The notes beneath the pieces are model-generated. The model was not told the origin of the DNA. It saw only the letters and a program-made list of their open reading frames with translations, and did not search any database. The position numbers were made by a program, and so were the translations under genes. Shown here one piece after another: positions 4,919 through 29,979 of a stretch of 29,979 nt of DNA; the stretch's first letter is position 1, and each line of letters starts with the position of its first letter. Source of the stretch: a virus; the IMG/VR virus record IMGVR_UViG_3300032087_002614, positions 1 through 29,979 of that record. The stretch is one strand, 5' to 3'.

Positions 4919-5830
4919 ATGACTGAAGAAGTTACACAAGACGAAACTGCTGGTTTTGTCACAACATCAAGCGATTTACCAGAAGTTCAACCTGAGTCAC
5001 AGGAAGAGCAGACACCAACGGAAGAGGCCACTCCCGAAGTTGACGCTACTGTAGAAGAAGGGAAAGAAGCTGATAAAGAAACTGATGAACCCGGCACCGA
5101 TACCGCCGCCGATACCGAAAAGGCTAAAAAGTCTAACGGTGTTCAAAAACGTATTGATAAAGTAGTAAGGGAACGTGAAGAAGAACGCCGTAAAAGTGAA
5201 TCTTTACAGCGCGAACTTGACGAATTGAAGAAGGGTAAGCAACAAAAACCTGAAGAGCAAGCTGAAGTAAAAGAGCCTGTTGAATCTGATTTTGATACTT
5301 ACGATGAATATCTTGATGCTTTAGACAAGTTCGATAAGCAACCTGATCAGAAAGTCGAAAAGGAAACCGACACTGATAAGAAAGATAATGACTCGCAAGC
5401 AGATGAAGAATTGACCGACTCGCAGAAGACGGCCTTGGCCATTACACAAGAACGTGTTGCTTCTGCCGAAAAGCCTGAAGACTTTGATGCTGTTGCGCTT
5501 AATCCTGATCTTCCTGTAACTGGTGAAATGCTTGAAGCATTAGCTGAATGTGATGACCCGGCCAAGGTTATGTATCATTTAGGCCAGAACAAGGATCTTG
5601 CTACTGATATTGCTGGTCAATCACCAGCTCAACAAATGCGAGCAATCGCTAAACTTGATCTGACGGTGACGAGCAAACCGCCGAAACCGACAAAAACAAC
5701 TAACGCGCCGGAGCCTATTACTCCTGTTGGTGGTAGTGACGCACAAGAAAAGTCTCCTGAAGATATGTCTTTTGCTGAATACGAAGCCTACATGAATAAG
5801 AAAGAGCAAAAGCGTAAATCATCTTGGTAA
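4919..5830 (+). CDS. Capsid scaffolding protein, P22 gp8-like
   Basis: The product is 303 residues, the same length as P22 scaffold, and lies in the scaffold slot just before the coat gene. Scaffold guides coat assembly into a prohead and then leaves. The first 85 residues are very acidic and low in complexity (Glu, Asp, Thr, Pro). A charged helical stretch at about 75-110 (KRIDKVVREREEERRK and following) is a likely coiled coil. The last about 25 residues are helical and basic ('YEAYMNKKEQKRKSSW'), matching the coat-binding helix-turn-helix found at the C terminus of P22 gp8. Similarity is architectural; sequence in this family diverges fast. AGGAT lies upstream of the ATG. Confidence 0.85.
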   Translation: MTEEVTQDETAGFVTTSSDLPEVQPESQEEQTPTEEATPEVDATVEEGKEADKETDEPGTDTAADTEKAKKSNGVQKRIDKVVREREEERRKSESLQRELDELKKGKQQKPEEQAEVKEPVESDFDTYDEYLDALDKFDKQPDQKVEKETDTDKKDNDSQADEELTDSQKTALAITQERVASAEKPEDFDAVALNPDLPVTGEMLEALAECDDPAKVMYHLGQNKDLATDIAGQSPAQQMRAIAKLDLTVTSKPPKPTKTTNAPEPITPVGGSDAQEKSPEDMSFAEYEAYMNKKEQKRKSSW

Positions 5831-24808: not shown

Positions 24809-25005
24809 TTCATGGACCTATATTTATTAAGATGATTTTTAAATTGCTCTTGCTCATGTTTAGGAAGTTTATTTATTTTAGCTTGAACGGCTGATCTTGT
24901 GATCTTGCCTCTTCTCATGTTGTTGATAAGAAGCGCCGCTTGTCGCTGAAGTTCAATATCTCGCCTTTCATGATCAGGCAACAAAGATAAGTTTGTGCTT
25001 TTCAT
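24805..25005 (-). CDS. Small hypothetical protein (possibly DUF3283-like)
   Basis: The 66-residue helical protein opens with 'NLSLLPDHERRDIELQRQAA' and ends with 'EQFKNHLNKYRSMK'. This reminds me of the short DUF3283 proteins of vibrios and their phages, but the assignment is from memory and tentative. No catalytic residues are seen. It starts at TAATG, overlapping the stop of the DUF1367 gene, and ends at ATGA with the next, so it is embedded in the operon. Confidence 0.65.
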   Translation of the reverse strand: MKSTNLSLLPDHERRDIELQRQAALLINNMRRGKITRSAVQAKINKLPKHEQEQFKNHLNKYRSMK

Positions 25006-25442
25006 TAGAAGAAGTTCATTAGTTGATTTTCAATGCCAACATCGGCACCGGGGAAAACGTGTTTTAATGCGGCTCTGATCAAAGCGTTATAGCACTCTTC
25101 AAACTCTTCCTGACTCATTGAAGAAAAGGCCAGTGACTTAGCTTCAATTCTTACTTCGCCGTGAATGTTGGCAAACTGATCATAGAAGCCAGCCAAGCAA
25201 GTTAAATGCTGTCTGAATATATCAAACTGCTTTGACTCGCTTTGAAACTCGTTATCACCTTTCCAATACTCAAAGCAGAAGTTGAAGAACGCGAAAACTT
25301 TACGGTGAAAAGCCGGGTTACGCGCAAGCTTAATTTCAACTGAATACTGGCCACCAGTTTTAAACTTGTTTAGCTTTTCAAGTTCCATATCAGAAGCCGG
25401 AACGAGCAAGCCGCCCGGCTGTTTAATCATTTCAATCTTCAT
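25005..25442 (-). CDS. DUF1367 family protein
   Basis: The 145-residue protein matches DUF1367: the N-terminal 'MIKQPGGLLVPASDMELEKLNKFKTGGQYSVEIKLARNP' region (a 'G-x-L-x-P' strand, then 'K.G..Y.V..K..RNP') leads to 'FHRKVFAFFNFCFEYW', the family core. These proteins are found in the nin or recombination regions of many lambdoid prophages, often beside NinB or NinG, and a role in DNA replication or recombination is presumed but unproved. It overlaps the upstream gene by 11 bp. Confidence 0.85.
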   Translation of the reverse strand: MKIEMIKQPGGLLVPASDMELEKLNKFKTGGQYSVEIKLARNPAFHRKVFAFFNFCFEYWKGDNEFQSESKQFDIFRQHLTCLAGFYDQFANIHGEVRIEAKSLAFSSMSQEEFEECYNALIRAALKHVFPGADVGIENQLMNFF

Positions 25443-25824
25443 CTTTCAAATAATCCTTTAAACAAACAAGAGCTTGAAGAATGTCGTGATGATAAATCTT
25501 ATGAAATCCGATAGGCGTATCAGGATAAAACTGTATTTCAACTAAATTATCCTTATCTCTGATAGACTCCCATATATCCATTGGTATGGTTTCGCCCGGT
25601 ATTTCTCCAAGATCAACAAGGTAATTTTCTACGTTTTCATAGTAATTTTTATGCTGGTTTATTTCTAAATGAAAGCCAGCTTTACATTGATTAACGACCT
25701 TGAAAAAGCTAGAAAAAATATCACAGCTATTCTCTAGCCACTCAACTCTTTCAACAAGTTTGTTTTTAGGAACTTCAAGAAGAGTGGCGCAACACTGAGT
25801 TTTAATAATCTCACTAGCTTTCAT
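25432..25824 (-). CDS. Hypothetical early protein
   Basis: I do not recognise this 130-residue protein. It is acidic, with a Cys pair near the N terminus ('TQCCATLL') and a C-terminal part that looks alpha/beta ('LVEIQFYPDTPIGFHKIYHHD', shown in part). No membrane segment or known motif is visible. The start lies in TAATG with the upstream stop, and its end overlaps the DUF1367 gene, so it is firmly part of the operon. Confidence 0.7.
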   Translation of the reverse strand: MKASEIIKTQCCATLLEVPKNKLVERVEWLENSCDIFSSFFKVVNQCKAGFHLEINQHKNYYENVENYLVDLGEIPGETIPMDIWESIRDKDNLVEIQFYPDTPIGFHKIYHHDILQALVCLKDYLKDED

Positions 25825-26027
25825 TAGTTTAGCCTCCCGGAATTTTTCCTTTCTGCTTCGGCAGTAAGTATTTTTTGCCTTTCTAAAAGCTGCTTGTAAT
25901 ATTCGGCTTCTTGCTGGCTTTGTCTTAACTCAGACTTTAAAAACTGAATTTGCCTTTCGTACTGGTGCTTTATTACATTTGCTTTCGCCTCACTAACGGC
26001 GAACATAGAGCCAAATAAGTTAAGCAT
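25824..26027 (-). CDS. Small coiled-coil protein
   Basis: The best start is the ATG at 26027, giving 67 residues, since GAGGAAA lies just upstream; the open frame continues to 26153 but that part reads out of frame through the preceding gene and is hydrophobic junk-like. The N-terminal 12 residues are hydrophobic ('LNLFGSMFAV') and the rest is one long charged helix ('HQYERQIQFLKSELRQSQQE') with heptad spacing. This could be a membrane-anchored coiled coil of the Rz-like type, but it lies in an early operon and no Rz1 partner is seen, so I give no function. Confidence 0.6.
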   Translation of the reverse strand: MLNLFGSMFAVSEAKANVIKHQYERQIQFLKSELRQSQQEAEYYKQLLERQKILTAEAERKNSGRLN

Positions 26028-26283
26028 TGCGAATTTCCTCAAGCTCTTCAATGATAGCTTCGCTAAGATCATCAAGCAGATAGCTAGCGTCATAAAGCTT
26101 TCGCTTGCCTTGCTCATAACCAATACAATACAAAGCGCAAACTTCATATTCATCTGGCTCAGCCGGGTAACAGTCTTCAGGTGCTAAGTGATAAACGCCT
26201 GGCGTTCCTTTGGTAAAGTTAAACTCAACCTGAAATTCAATTTCTTTACCAAGGATCTCAATTTGTAATTCTTCGGTATTCAT
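26020..26283 (-). CDS. Hypothetical early protein
   Basis: This acidic 87-residue protein has an N-terminal strand-rich part ('LQIEILGKEIEFQVEFNFTKG'), a central Cys and Pro-rich part ('PEDCYPAEPDEYEVCALYC'), and a helical acidic end. The start is supported by AGGAAG about eight bases upstream. Similar short proteins beginning with a 'V-x-F-x-Y/F' strand and 'GxPxxxxx' loop are found in many phages, but I cannot name a family. It overlaps the next gene by 8 bp. Confidence 0.7.
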   Translation of the reverse strand: MNTEELQIEILGKEIEFQVEFNFTKGTPGVYHLAPEDCYPAEPDEYEVCALYCIGYEQGKRKLYDASYLLDDLSEAIIEELEEIRNA

Positions 26284-26292
26284 TGTTATACT
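26263..26292 (+). promoter_or_regulatory. Possible antisense promoter opposite the early operon
   Basis: TTGTAA (26263-26268) and TATACT (26287-26292) are spaced by 18 bp on the + strand, opposite to the surrounding genes. Matches to consensus are 4/6 and 5/6. A transcript would start near 26299 and meet the terminator at 26335-26364. Confidence 0.35.
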
Positions 26293-26298
26293 TCCTAT

Positions 26299-26364
26299 TG
26301 CTTACTTTGGACGAGTTAAGTATTTTCATGTTGCGCCCTAACTTTAATCGGTTAGGGCTTTTTT
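26299..26364 (+). ncRNA. Candidate short antisense RNA
   Basis: Between a promoter-like pair and a strong intrinsic terminator lies a transcript of about 65 nt that encodes no protein. It is antisense to the leader between the methyltransferase stop and the next early gene, including the region just beyond that gene's ribosome site. The call rests on the two signals only. Confidence 0.3.
26335..26364 (+). terminator. Intrinsic terminator facing rightward, against the operon
   Basis: GCCCTAAC (26335-26342) and GTTAGGGC (26351-26358) form a perfect 8-bp stem around an 8-nt loop, followed on the + strand by six T. On the - strand, the direction of the flanking genes, the stem is followed by GCAACATG, with no T-run. 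It therefore points opposite to all nearby genes. It could stop antisense or read-through transcription, or end a short RNA. Confidence 0.65.
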
Positions 26365-26908
26365 ATTTCTGATAGAAACCTTCTCTAAAATCGTGATACA
26401 TAAACGAAGTGTTAGGTTTCTTGATTCCTAACGGTGTAAAGATGGCAACCAAACAGCTAAATTGAGGCCCTTGCTCCTTACCTTTCTTATCAAGAAACAT
26501 TTCGCCGCTTGGTTTTCGGTACTTAATACGAAAAGGCATTTCAATGATAGTATCAGCCCATTCTTTAGCATATCGAACATAAGCCGTTTCAGGATTGTTA
26601 GGCATAATAGCTGCAGTATTTTTAAAGCCTGAAGATGATTGCTCAACCGCTTTCTCAAGGAATGGTAAGATATTTGAGAAAGGTGGGTTACACCAGTTCC
26701 ATAAATCCCATTCCAATTCAAGGCAGTTTTCGCCTCGCTCAGCCAAACTATAACAAGTTGTCGCCTTCTTGGTTTGCTCAAGAGCGCAAACATCAAGCTC
26801 AAAAAACTCAATACCTAGCAGATCACAAAGCGATTCAATAAACCAAACTGGTGTTTGAGCTAAGTCCTTTTCGCTTTCTGGCGTAGTGCTTTCGTTGTAT
26901 TTACTCAT
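26363..26908 (-). CDS. Phage DNA N6-adenine methyltransferase (Dam_PF05869 type)
   Basis: The start at 26908 (181 residues) overlaps the upstream stop as ATGAGTAA with AAGGAATTG upstream; an in-frame start at 26950 is less likely. Residues 17-23 'AQTPVWF' and 37-42 'ELDVCA' fit the family's opening, and WCNPPFSNI at 72-80 holds the NPPF catalytic motif of N6-adenine methyltransferases. 'IMPNNPET' (101-108) and the C-terminal 'GPQFSCLVAIF' are also typical of PF05869, a family of about 170-190 residues found in many phages. It methylates adenine in phage DNA, probably to avoid host restriction. Target site is unknown. Confidence 0.9.
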   Translation of the reverse strand: MSKYNESTTPESEKDLAQTPVWFIESLCDLLGIEFFELDVCALEQTKKATTCYSLAERGENCLELEWDLWNWCNPPFSNILPFLEKAVEQSSSGFKNTAAIMPNNPETAYVRYAKEWADTIIEMPFRIKYRKPSGEMFLDKKGKEQGPQFSCLVAIFTPLGIKKPNTSFMYHDFREGFYQK

Positions 26909-27494
26909 TATTCTCAATTCCTTTTCTGTTGCGATAGTTTTGAATGCCATCGGTTATATGTTTTAAGCCTTGCGATTGCTCAGCCTTGTGGTTTTCTAAA
27001 GCTACTCGACCCGGTAATTTATCAGGCAAGGCTTCAACTGGTGTACGATCAAAGTTTCGGTAAGTGGCAATAAACTCTTTGTGTAGCCAAACAAGTTCAG
27101 CTTCAGTTTTTGCACAAATTGACTTCCAACCACCAACGGATTGAACGGCGGCTAACGCTTGTTTATCTTCAAGCTTTAAGCTTCCGTAGCTACCAATTCG
27201 CTTTATCTCGCCTAAGATAGCCATCCAAGCAAGTTCAGCTTTGTCTTCAACTTCCTGTTCATTCTGCTTAGTAGTACCAGAAACAAACCTTGTTAAGCTT
27301 GCTGGCTTTGGTGGGTACATACCCTGATCAGGGCAAGTCATATGAGAATAAACGGCGCTTTCAAATTGTTCTATTGAAAGTGGCTTTAACATTCTCCACC
27401 AGCCTTCAAGCTCTGAACGGCTAAATTCTTTACCGTAAGTGTCGGCAATAAGAGTTATTAGCTCTTTAAATTTTTGTTGATCATGACTTTCCAT
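26901..27494 (-). CDS. Helicase-loader-like replication protein (DUF6475 / lambda P position)
   Basis: The 197-residue protein follows the O-like gene, as P follows O in lambda. The N-terminal half 'LITLIADTYGKEFSRSELEGWW' and 'YPPKPASLTRFV' and the second half 'AWMAILGEIKRIGSYGSLKLED' and 'VGGWKSIC' followed by 'FIATYRNF' fit the DUF6475 layout found in phage replication modules. The likely job is loading the host replicative helicase at the phage origin, since no helicase gene is seen in the window. It starts at TAATG with the O-like stop and ends overlapping the methyltransferase start. Confidence 0.72.
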   Translation of the reverse strand: MESHDQQKFKELITLIADTYGKEFSRSELEGWWRMLKPLSIEQFESAVYSHMTCPDQGMYPPKPASLTRFVSGTTKQNEQEVEDKAELAWMAILGEIKRIGSYGSLKLEDKQALAAVQSVGGWKSICAKTEAELVWLHKEFIATYRNFDRTPVEALPDKLPGRVALENHKAEQSQGLKHITDGIQNYRNRKGIENNE

Positions 27495-28288
27495 TACTTC
27501 AACTCCACATCAATAATGTTATTAATAGTTTTCTCAGCCGCTTGGCTGAATTGCCTTTGCTGAGGTTGTTGGCCTACGTTATCCCTGAATTGCTCAAACT
27601 TGTCAGGGCGGCAAATCAAATCAATATCGTTGTATTTGGTTTGATTGTCATTTTGCCCCATATGGAAAGCTGATCTTGAGCAGTTGAAAATAGCCTGTTT
27701 AACTTCTTCAATTGGATAACCATCTTTAAGGCGATCAGATATAAGCTTTTCACGCTTCTTATTTAATCTGGTAGATGCGCCTTTTCTCATTACCTCCTTC
27801 CAATAATTGAATACTTCAAGAACTTCGTTGTTATTAGCTTTAGCTGATAACTTCTTATTACTTGTTTCTTGTTTATTGGTTAATGGTTCTTGGTTTATGT
27901 TTAATGTTTCTTGTTTAGCATTGCCTTCGCTTTGCGATTGTAATGCGTTCGCATTGCCTTCGCTTTGCGGTTGCTTCTTGTTCCAGCGAGCTTCGGCAGA
28001 CTTACGAGCCTTGTCAGACTTGGCTTTGAAAGCATCAACCTCTTTTTTTATGCGAGAATTTATGTAACCAGAATCAGTTTTAATAAAAAACTCTTCTAAT
28101 ACATACGCAATGCTTTCGGTATGCGTTCGCATTAAAATCTTCTTGGCGATCTCATTTATGTCGAGTGGAAGCGGCTCTTCGTGTAGATAGCACCAGTCCA
28201 TCATTCGCCTAAATGCTAAGTCCTCTAACAAATCAAGGTGATCTGTATGAGACTTGTAATCACCAATATTAAATTGGTAATAGTGCAT
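27494..28288 (-). CDS. Replication initiation protein, DUF1376 (lambda O-like)
   Basis: The 264-residue protein starts with a DUF1376 domain (about 1-95): 'YYQFNIGDYKSHTDHLDLLEDLAFRRMMDWCY' is the family opening (partly quoted), a winged-helix-like DNA-binding fold. A low-complexity linker (about 107-145) has an 11-residue repeat containing QSEGNA and then three 7-residue repeats beginning QET or QEP. The C-terminal region ('VFNYWKEVMRKGA', 'IEEVKQAIFNCSRSAFHMG') is typical of O-like proteins that contact a helicase loader. It should recognise the phage origin and recruit the next gene's product. The DNA encoding the linker is itself a candidate origin. It starts two bases after the HTH gene stop. 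Confidence 0.82.
   Translation of the reverse strand: MHYYQFNIGDYKSHTDHLDLLEDLAFRRMMDWCYLHEEPLPLDINEIAKKILMRTHTESIAYVLEEFFIKTDSGYINSRIKKEVDAFKAKSDKARKSAEARWNKKQPQSEGNANALQSQSEGNAKQETLNINQEPLTNKQETSNKKLSAKANNNEVLEVFNYWKEVMRKGASTRLNKKREKLISDRLKDGYPIEEVKQAIFNCSRSAFHMGQNDNQTKYNDIDLICRPDKFEQFRDNVGQQPQQRQFSQAAEKTINNIIDVELK
27863..27969. repeat. Candidate origin: 21-bp AT-rich tandem repeats next to 19-bp repeats
   Basis: Two exact 19-bp copies of GCATTGCCTTCGCTTTGCG lie at 27918-27936 and 27951-27969, 33 bp apart. Beside them are three AT-rich copies with a 21-bp period: TGTTTCTTGTTTA at 27863-27875 and 27905-27917, and TGGTTCTTGGTTTA at 27884-27897. A dyad AATGCGTTCGCATT (27942-27955) lies between the 19-mers. 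A diverged copy of the 19-mer (15/19) lies at 28107-28125. Lambda ori has the same plan, iterons plus AT-rich DNA inside gene O. Confidence 0.55.
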
Positions 28289-28290
28289 GG

Positions 28291-28494
28291 TTAGCTTTCC
28301 TCGCCAAGAGCAACAAACTCGCTCACTGGCATTTCAAAGTAATCAGCAATAGCAACAATACTTGATTGTTTTATTGAACCGCTTTTAAGCCAGTTAGAAA
28401 CTTGCTGGCTACTCGTTCCTAGCGCATCGGCTAGTTCTTTGTGCTTAATGCCCTTTTCGGCAATTGCTAGCCTTAGAGACTTACTTAAATTCAT
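28291..28494 (-). CDS. Small Cro/CI-type helix-turn-helix regulator
   Basis: The 67-residue protein is a single HTH_3 domain. 'IKHKELADALGTSSQQVSNWLKSG' (residues 16-39, read in parts) is the HTH, with 'QQVSNWLK' as the recognition helix, followed by a 'SSIVAIADYF' helix and a short tail. It has no C-terminal dimerisation or autocleavage domain, so it is Cro-like in size. It is the first gene of the leftward operon, with AGGAG upstream, and lies beside the divergent control region it probably binds. It may control both early operons. Confidence 0.86.
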   Translation of the reverse strand: MNLSKSLRLAIAEKGIKHKELADALGTSSQQVSNWLKSGSIKQSSIVAIADYFEMPVSEFVALGEES

Positions 28495-28528
28495 TTTTGG
28501 TTAAACTCCTACATGGTTGATATGGTGT

Positions 28529-28607
28529 AACTATAAACGGCCTAAATTAAAAAGTACAGAAAAAAATGAAATAAATGTTGATTTAATGAAGTTTAATGTT
28601 TATAGTT
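28529..28607. promoter_or_regulatory. Divergent early promoters with inverted-repeat operators
   Basis: AACTATAAAC (28529-28538) and GTTTATAGTT (28598-28607) are exact inverted copies. The right copy contains the -10 TATAGT (28601-28606) of a rightward promoter with TTGATT (28578-28583) 17 bp upstream. The left copy gives TATAGT on the - strand for the leftward operon, with a poor -35. An HTH protein bound at both would block each -10. Confidence 0.6.
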
Positions 28608-28633
28608 CAGTCATCACAACGGAGAAGCGCATT

Positions 28634-28807
28634 ATGAAAGCAAGAAAGTTACTTATTGGTTTGGTTGTATTAGGTTTGTTTGGTTTAGTTGGCTCAATGG
28701 ATTATCAAGACGAGTTAGCAGAAGAACGCCATTATTGCCAAATGGTTAAAGAAGGTAACTGGCCAGCTTTTAAAGATGGCGTTAACTGTAATGATTCGTC
28801 CAACTAG
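28634..28807 (+). CDS. Small membrane-anchored or secreted phage protein
   Basis: The start is ATG 28634 (57 residues), supported by CGGAGAAG; the frame is open upstream to 28517 but this crosses the promoter. Residues 4-20 ('KLLIGLVVLGLFGLVG') are a signal or single membrane segment after a basic N terminus. The rest, 'DYQDELAEERHYCQMVKEGNWPAF', fits a widespread small phage protein pattern with 'YC-x-M-V-x-x-G-x-W-P' and a second Cys near the end, suggesting a disulfide in the periplasm. It is the first gene of the rightward early operon. Function is unknown. Confidence 0.75.
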   Translation: MKARKLLIGLVVLGLFGLVGSMDYQDELAEERHYCQMVKEGNWPAFKDGVNCNDSSN

Positions 28808-28822
28808 CTAATAGGTATCAAC

Positions 28823-29092
28823 ATGGAAAAAGTAAAAGCACAATTATTCATTCACAAAGGCTTTGATGGTAAGCCAATGGTCGCAACTAATGATATGCGA
28901 TCTTATGGTTACGCTCTTCTTGGCACTCACGAAGTTGAAGTTCCAGTTCCTGAAACTGATGTTGTTGAAGCTGAAATTGAAGCTTTATATGAGCAAGCTG
29001 GAACCATTGAAGCTGAAGCTCTTGATAAGGTTTTAGTGTTAAGAGAAAAAGCCAGTAAGTTAAAAAAATTAAGAGGTGATAAAAGTGAGTAA
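28823..29092 (+). CDS. Small hypothetical early protein
   Basis: The 89-residue protein has an N-terminal strand-rich half ('KAQLFIHKGFDGKPMVATNDM', then 'YALLGTHEVEVPVPE') and an acidic helical second half rich in Glu and Ala that may form a coiled coil, ending in a basic patch. It overlaps the ERF gene by 8 bp (GTGAGTAA), so the two are coupled. TAGGTA lies upstream of the ATG. I do not recognise a named family. Confidence 0.72.
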   Translation: MEKVKAQLFIHKGFDGKPMVATNDMRSYGYALLGTHEVEVPVPETDVVEAEIEALYEQAGTIEAEALDKVLVLREKASKLKKLRGDKSE

Positions 29093-29828
29093 GTCAGAAT
29101 TAGTTACACAAGAACAAAGCTCATTACCTGTAATGGCTCAGCCTCACATGAGATTGATTGAAATCGCCGTTGAAAAAGGCGCTGATATTACTCAACTTGA
29201 AAAGCTTATGGATCTTCAAGAACGCTACGAAGCCAACCAAGCCAAAAAAGACTTCAACGAAGCAATGTCAAAGTTTCAAAGTCTTTTACCAACGATTGAG
29301 AAATCAGGCATTGTTGATTACACAACTAACAAAGGTCGTACTTACTACGATTACGCCAAACTTGAAGACATTGCTAAGGCAATTCGCCCGGCGCTAAAAG
29401 AAACCGGGTTATCTTATCGCTTCAGCCAATCTCAAAACCAAGGTTGGATCACTGTTACTTGTATCGTTACTCATGCCAGTGGTCATAGCGAAGTTAGCGA
29501 GTTAACTTCTCAGCCTGACGTTAGCGGCGGCAAGGACCCACTTAAAGCAATCGCTTCAGCTATTAGTTATCTAAGACGTTATACGCTAACTGGTAGTTTG
29601 GGTATTGTCGTTGGTGGTGAAGATGATGATGGCGGCAACCATGAAGAAGCCGTTGATGAATCAGCTTGTTACCCTGATGAAGAATTTAAGAAAAACTTCC
29701 CAAATTGGGAAAAGGCAATTTTAGCCGGAAAGAAAACGCCTGATCAAATTATCAAGTCTGGTAATGCTCAAGGTATAACTTTCTCAACTCAACAATTATT
29801 AACAATAGAAAAAGTAGGGAACGCATAA
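29085..29828 (+). CDS. erf: ERF family single-strand annealing recombinase
   Basis: The likely start is GTG 29085, placed by AGAGGTG at 29072-29078; a GTG at 29076 is in frame but lies within that site. The 247-residue protein belongs to the ERF family (PF04404): 'KKDFNEAMSKFQSLLPTIEKSG', 'YYDYAKLEDIAKAIRPAL' and 'GLSYRF' followed by 'TCIVTHASGH' and 'AISYLRRYTLTGSLGI' are the core, where the last contains the conserved 'YxRRYxLxxxLGI'. P22 Erf circularises the terminally redundant genome by annealing, needed when the host RecA path is absent. The acidic 'GGEDDDGG' follows the core as usual. Confidence 0.94.
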   Translation: MSKSELVTQEQSSLPVMAQPHMRLIEIAVEKGADITQLEKLMDLQERYEANQAKKDFNEAMSKFQSLLPTIEKSGIVDYTTNKGRTYYDYAKLEDIAKAIRPALKETGLSYRFSQSQNQGWITVTCIVTHASGHSEVSELTSQPDVSGGKDPLKAIASAISYLRRYTLTGSLGIVVGGEDDDGGNHEEAVDESACYPDEEFKKNFPNWEKAILAGKKTPDQIIKSGNAQGITFSTQQLLTIEKVGNA

Positions 29829-29829
29829 C

Positions 29830-29979
29830 ATGAAAATATTAAACCTCGTCCAAGGTTCAGCAGAATGGTTAAAGGCAAGAGAAGAGCACTTTAACGCAAG
29901 TGAAGCGCCTAGTATTTTTGGTGAAAGCAAGTACAAAAGCCGTACTGTTTTACTTAATGAAAAAAAAGGTGTTAAAGTT
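29830..29979 (+). CDS. YqaJ/lambda-exonuclease-type nuclease, N-terminal part (partial at right edge)
   Basis: Fifty codons are visible, starting at ATG 29830 with AGGGA upstream and one base after the ERF stop. 'LVQGSAEWLKAREEHFNASEAPSIFG' (quoted in part) follows the 'QGS-x-E-W-x(3)-R ... ASE-x(3)-xxG' opening of the YqaJ viral recombinase family. The catalytic Asp/Glu/Lys residues lie beyond the window. A 5'-3' exonuclease beside a single-strand annealing protein is the standard two-gene phage recombination pair. Confidence 0.85.
   Translation, partial: MKILNLVQGSAEWLKAREEHFNASEAPSIFGESKYKSRTVLLNEKKGVKV

Follow-up and report, generated by a model that had tools for sequence, protein, structure and literature searches.

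A probable lambda-type replication origin within the gene of its own presumed initiator, a DUF1376 protein of a viral genome record

Introduction

Proteins with a DUF1376 domain (PF07120), a domain of 'unknown function', are common in phages and prophages. In the IMG/VR record IMGVR_UViG_3300032087_002614 (record class linear; 29,979 bp, analysed over its whole length and referred to here as the window), the gene for one such protein is filled with short repeats where it codes for the linker between two domains. This raises the question of whether the repeated DNA serves only the protein that it encodes or is also the place where replication starts, as in gene O of phage lambda. The original prediction favoured an origin and named codon-level expansion of the linker as its main alternative. 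Here, we describe the gene and its repeats, the constraint acting on them and their occurrence among relatives, and we conclude that the locus is probably a lambda-type origin lying inside its own initiator's gene, with protein binding, strand opening, helicase loading and the start of replication here as inferences.

The initiator gene and its neighbours

The O-like initiator gene (27494..28288, minus strand) encodes 264 amino acids and matches DUF1376 with E=1e-18 and 67.9 bits, above the curated cut-off of 30.1 bits; its PHROG matches are named primosomal protein, replication initiation protein and replication initiation O-like. In the AF2 model, a confidently predicted DUF1376 N-terminal domain (about residues 1-105) is followed by a disordered linker (residues 109-149) and a helical C-terminal domain (residues 150-235). 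Many of the best structural matches of the N-terminal domain are winged-helix DNA-binding proteins, with Z scores of only 4-6 that make this fold a lead only; Foldseek returned nothing for the domain at E<=0.001, and the family profile, searched against PDB sequences, gave no convincing match (best E=0.23). The C-terminal domain has a weak PHROG DnaD match (E=0.0016), which gives no clear DnaD assignment.

The next gene in the operon (26901..27494, minus strand) encodes a DUF6475 protein (PF20081) and is presumed, from its position and a weak match to the PHROG helicase loader profile (5e-5), to specify a P-like helicase loader. The gene after the initiator is annotated as replication protein P in Shewanella phage X14, and a DnaB-like helicase or an IstB-like ATPase can occupy this position in other relatives. 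Immediately upstream of the initiator lies a small Cro/C1-type HTH gene (28291..28494, minus strand; PF01381), an order also found in X14 and 1.184.A. The nearest named relative found, Thalassomonas phage BA3, matches 59% of positions 25000-29979 at 86% DNA identity. GATC sites are not enriched in the initiator gene (4, against an average of 3.3 per 800 bp), and GC skew, a check suggested with the original prediction, is uninformative both in the window and in complete BA3, since its turning points track the direction in which the genes are transcribed.

Two tandem arrays in the linker DNA

The linker is encoded by two adjoining arrays. One (27861..27916, minus strand) consists of eight heptamers of the form AAMCANN, which on the coding strand read AAACAAG, AAACATT, AAACATA, AACCAAG, AACCATT, AACCAAT, AAACAAG and AAACAAG, and is the presumed unwinding element. 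Successive units start in codon phases 0, 1, 2, 0, 1, 2, 0 and 1. The tract had been described as AT-rich repeats of 21 bp at 27863-27917; it is indeed there, with a true unit of 7 bp, and because three heptamers make 21 bp the peptide has a period of seven residues, hence the longer period first reported. The other array (27919..27973, minus strand) comprises five tandem 11-bp units resembling CGAAnGCAnnG, two of them matching this consensus at 8/8 positions, one at 7/8 and two at 6/8, and presumed to be binding sites of the initiator. Two more 11-bp units are embedded in the codons of the DUF1376 domain (28108..28129, minus strand), and the only three exact matches to CGAAnGCAnnG in the window all fall within the initiator gene. 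The heptamers are 75% AT and the iterons 48%, compared with 59% for the window as a whole, and the AT-rich tract adjoins the iterons.

The longer repeats of the original prediction were all recovered and can be placed in these arrays. The two exact 19-bp copies of GCATTGCCTTCGCTTTGCG (27918-27936 and 27951-27969), 33 bp apart, fall inside the five-unit run, and the diverged third copy GCAATGCTTTCGGTATGCG (28107-28125; 15/19) corresponds to the in-domain 11-bp units. The 14-bp dyad AATGCGTTCGCATT (27942-27955), palindromic at 12 of 14 bases around a central TT, also lies inside the iteron run, and its 13-bp core ATGCGTTCGCATT recurs exactly at 28121-28133. Exact 13-mers repeated on one strand no more than 400 bp apart form nine pairs in the whole window, all in the initiator gene, against 0.3 expected from Markov shuffles. 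The repeats had been called in frame, which is correct for the 19-mers (33, 156 and 189 bp apart) and incorrect for the 13-bp core (178 bp apart, a frame shift of 1) and for the 7- and 11-bp units. The DNA around the in-domain pair (28090-28150, minus strand) can fold into a hairpin as RNA or as a single strand (z=-3.05).

Selection at the DNA level

To separate DNA periodicity from peptide periodicity, codons were exchanged among synonymous positions, which leaves protein and codon usage unchanged. For the initiator gene, the largest excess of self-match over the shuffles was at lags 7 and 11 (p=0.0005 each), and the other 23 tested ORFs or ORF segments of the window remained near background (strongest p=0.03, segment 15001-17000). 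Lambda gene O, a known origin put through the same test, yields lags 20, 23 and 24, which are the intervals between its annotated iterons (NC_001416). A first contig scan with the window protein as query found no relatives. Protein similarity identified 95 relatives (82 non-redundant genes obtained in scans with the N-terminal domain only and 13 phage homologues), a sample dominated by one clade because such scans retain the best matches to the window's domain. In these relatives, lag 7 is significant in 83%, lag 14 in 81% and lag 11 in 71%, compared with 1-14% for the control lags 4, 5, 6, 8, 9, 10 and 13. A held-out sample of DUF1376 genes, taken by Pfam only from one bacterial class and one further genome, contained ten analysable genes, five of which have a significant lag 7; two others, L485 and L487, have no significant lag 7 but contain two or more AACCA pairs spaced at 7 bp, and L492 and L493, both distant members, lack the arrays. 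A large subset of DUF1376 genes, and not the whole family, thus has this architecture.

Synonymous sites give the same result in 72 related genes, picked by peptide motif and not by codons. With the N-terminal domain as internal control, synonymous entropy relative to expectation averages 0.80 in that domain and 0.18 in linker codons 105-130 (Mann-Whitney p=9e-10, with columns taken as independent though the genes are related), so that nucleotides in the linker DNA of relatives are kept beyond codon need. One block of the control domain is itself near zero, and this block, codons 55-60, is the diverged third copy: Ser55 is TCG in 44/44 genes, His56 CAT in 67/69, Thr57 ACC in 28/28 and Cys59 TGC in 39/39. 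In the linker, one residue can have different fixed codons depending on position, alanine being GCG at 113, GCA at 115 and GCT at 124, and asparagine AAC at 114 and AAT at 123, for which codon bias or constraint on the protein only is insufficient. Moreover, the same DNA is read in different frames: in Vibrio phage 1.052.A, CTTATTAGAATGCGAACGCA in the domain (LIRMRTH) and CTTATCAGAATGCGAACGCA in the linker (LSECERNA) agree at 19/20 bases, and L387 and L079 hold further out-of-frame domain-linker copies (19/20 and 18/20). A domain-linker DNA match is significant at 0.05 in 23% of 98 genes, which marks the in-domain copy as a trait of some clades, not all. A function at the level of DNA is thus supported as far as sequence allows.

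The repeat plan among relatives

In 20 whole phage records the iteron pattern matched 17, mostly at two initiator-gene sites about 160 bp apart, and the reversed control pattern gave one match altogether. The iterons are associated with the initiator clade: CGAAnGCAnnG occurs in the window and many other phages, CGTTCAACGnn in another clade and ACCCAGTCGGTT-type iterons in PGA- and L027-like genes, and there are further types. The heptamer array, as AACCANN or variants such as CCCAATA, is common to several clades, on the coding strand and between the iterons and the C-terminal domain. Relatives with unrelated linkers devoid of repeats would have spoken against an origin; what we found is that the iterons differ and the iteron-plus-array plan is retained. 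A viral-contig scan for four tandem AACCANN units returned at least 120 stretches; among the matches listed, 80 were read, and about 76 of these are situated in linkers of this kind, with 72 in DUF1376 genes by HMM. At spacings of 8 and 6 bp, compared by gene context only and not by total counts, DUF1376 genes make up 24/80 and 13/80 of the matches listed, which also include simple repeats, PEPE-type proteins and intergenic (AACC)n.

The 8-bp matches contain a group of DUF1376 genes (L150, L153, L154, L163, L169 and others) with AACCA at this spacing (AACCANNN; AACCATCT units), so that the motif, and not its exact spacing, may be the conserved feature. At three further loci (L151, L152 and L164), ORFs of about 250-267 aa with no DUF1376 HMM match contain 8-bp AACCAATA-type arrays; these ORFs may be initiators from a different family that shares the tract. 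In Vibrio phage 1.183.O, an annotated CRISPR spacer match (L024:2861-2890) lies within the DUF1376 gene, close to where the linker repeats begin.

Domains and linkers also occur in different combinations. Eight sister-phage loci (L004, L005, L006, L011, L017, L022, L025 and L026) share the C-terminal domain and have several unrelated N-terminal domains; their linkers have repeats of their own (DSLNLIP, DKSRV and SDSDSD peptides), some with 5- or 7-bp DNA units. Repeats at this place next to the shared C-terminal domain include CCTGATT/CCCTTAA heptamers and AGTAG pentamers, some repeats being in frame. We count against an origin that some type-A domains are joined to foreign linkers, as we do the missing arrays of L492 and L493, the lack of 7/11-bp periodicity in E. 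coli ydaU and the weak fold match of the N-terminal domain. Where a type-A domain meets a type-B linker, the domain copy has more synonymous deviations (9/38 vs 9/320, Fisher p=1.6e-5), in genes that are few and partly near-identical and may represent perhaps three independent events.

A proposed model of initiation and its alternatives

The non-triplet units, their conservation as DNA and the AT-rich tract beside the iterons support the candidate origin, which has the predicted lambda-like placement, with multiple iterons in the linker DNA between the N- and C-terminal domains of an O-like gene. In the model that we propose, the predicted winged-helix-like N-terminal domain would bind the 11-bp iterons, five in the linker and two in its own codons, a step to which the link between iterons and initiator clade lends indirect support. 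As 11 bp is about one helical turn, protomers would stack on one face of the DNA, and the resulting nucleoprotein complex would strain and open the adjoining heptamer tract. The C-terminal domain and the presumed P-like protein of the next gene would then recruit the replicative helicase. The outlying in-domain pair may serve to tune or control initiation, to bind additional initiator, to autoregulate the gene or to form an RNA hairpin. More tentatively, and rather less likely than not, AACCA-type heptamers could be a common strand-specific element for opening or helicase loading, shared by many phage initiators whose recognition domains differ and read in single-stranded form (TGGT repeats) by the C-terminal domain or the loader, and the in-domain iterons would give the gene its own binding site a second time.

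The alternative that survives best, although we think it improbable, is a transcriptional or autoregulatory operator, through which the initiator or the HTH repressor encoded next to it would control the operon by binding the 11-mers, with the origin elsewhere. The gene has its in-domain pair close to the 5' end, the HTH gene is immediately upstream and the iterons change with the initiator clade, as operators would; the main site, however, lies about 320 bp into the gene, and an operator leaves unexplained the AT-rich heptamers, which recur just before the C-terminal domain across clades and next to unrelated N-terminal domains. An RNA-level element, either an mRNA hairpin or an antisense target, might freeze synonymous sites and would fit the in-domain hairpin and a weaker one in the linker (z=-1.97), but tandem direct 11- and 7-mers are not hairpin-like and the predicted fold leaves the heptamers unpaired, and we consider this very unlikely. 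It is hardly credible that the array is mainly a recombination boundary, that is, shared DNA for swapping N- and C-terminal domains between initiator modules: one C-terminal domain does occur with several unrelated N-terminal types, type-A domains do occur with type-B linkers, and BA3, despite 86% DNA identity over 59% of the region, has an initiator protein that is only 44% identical; against this, different linkers keep the repeat architecture without shared sequence (CCCAATA, CCTGATT/CCCTTAA, AGTAG), and homology needs neither tandem 7-mers nor iterons in a folded domain. Almost no weight is left for codon-level expansion, the growth of a low-complexity peptide linker by in-frame duplication, which has in its favour the predicted disorder, the in-frame 19-mers and the in-frame 6-, 15- and 21-bp repeats of some relatives with other N-terminal domains, but which cannot explain the arrays because neither 7 nor 11 is divisible by 3 and the units pass through all three codon phases, and which is ruled out as sole cause by these unit lengths, the position-specific codons, the out-of-frame copies and the loss of periodicity on synonymous shuffling.

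If the gene does contain an origin of this type, DUF1376 would have a function, that of a replication initiator, and a simple rule would locate origins from sequence: a linker whose tandem repeats have a non-triplet unit and whose synonymous sites are frozen. Odd linker peptides such as NHKPLTTNHKP, NQEPLTNNQEP and TQYPIPNTQYP would then be translated DNA heptamers. The locus would also offer a clean test case, in which one stretch of DNA codes for a folded domain and contains that domain's presumed binding site.

Comparison with known systems

In the open-access literature we found no paper tying DUF1376 to an origin, and no description in open-access papers of the heptamer tract, the helically phased 11-mers or the in-domain iteron pair. 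The DnaD recognition element of Bacillus subtilis oriC is a 5'-TnnT-3' motif (PMC10201434), which the repeated TGGT/TGTT opposite the heptamers fits (26 overlapping TnnT in 63 nt), although T-rich DNA always contains so short a motif. The Rac prophage of Escherichia coli has an active, normally repressed origin, oriJ (PMC3945230). YdaU, encoded by this prophage, belongs to DUF1376 as a distant homologue (28% over 132 aa), and ydaU (L479:5120-5977) has no significant 7- or 11-bp periodicity; it does have ATGTTCAAACA repeats, among them an 11-bp copy that is perfectly inverted (5511-5521 and 5568-5578) and others within the N-terminal domain, which make it a candidate for the place of oriJ. The BA3 initiator gene, BA3_0036, resembles that of the window in gene order, in the high identity of the surrounding DNA and in having its own linker repeats and an AACCA array, and differs in its protein (43.6% identical) and its unrelated iterons (GCTAACCCAGCGGAAACCGAAAGCAAAGC).

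An ori inside the initiator gene is a plan already known from lambda and Stx phages, where gene O likewise contains iterons and an AT-rich tract in the DNA of the initiator's linker, and in lambda the smallest unit that unwinds comprises two iterons and the AT-rich tract (PMC7466680). Lambda shares with the window the P-like gene after the initiator and the same statistical signature in the shuffle test. The lambda iterons are imperfect inverted repeats of 18-19 bp spaced at 20-24 bp, whereas those of the window are 11-bp tandem units, and the window further differs in its regular 7-bp AT-rich array, in the extra iteron pair within the folded N-terminal domain and in the nature of that domain, DUF1376.
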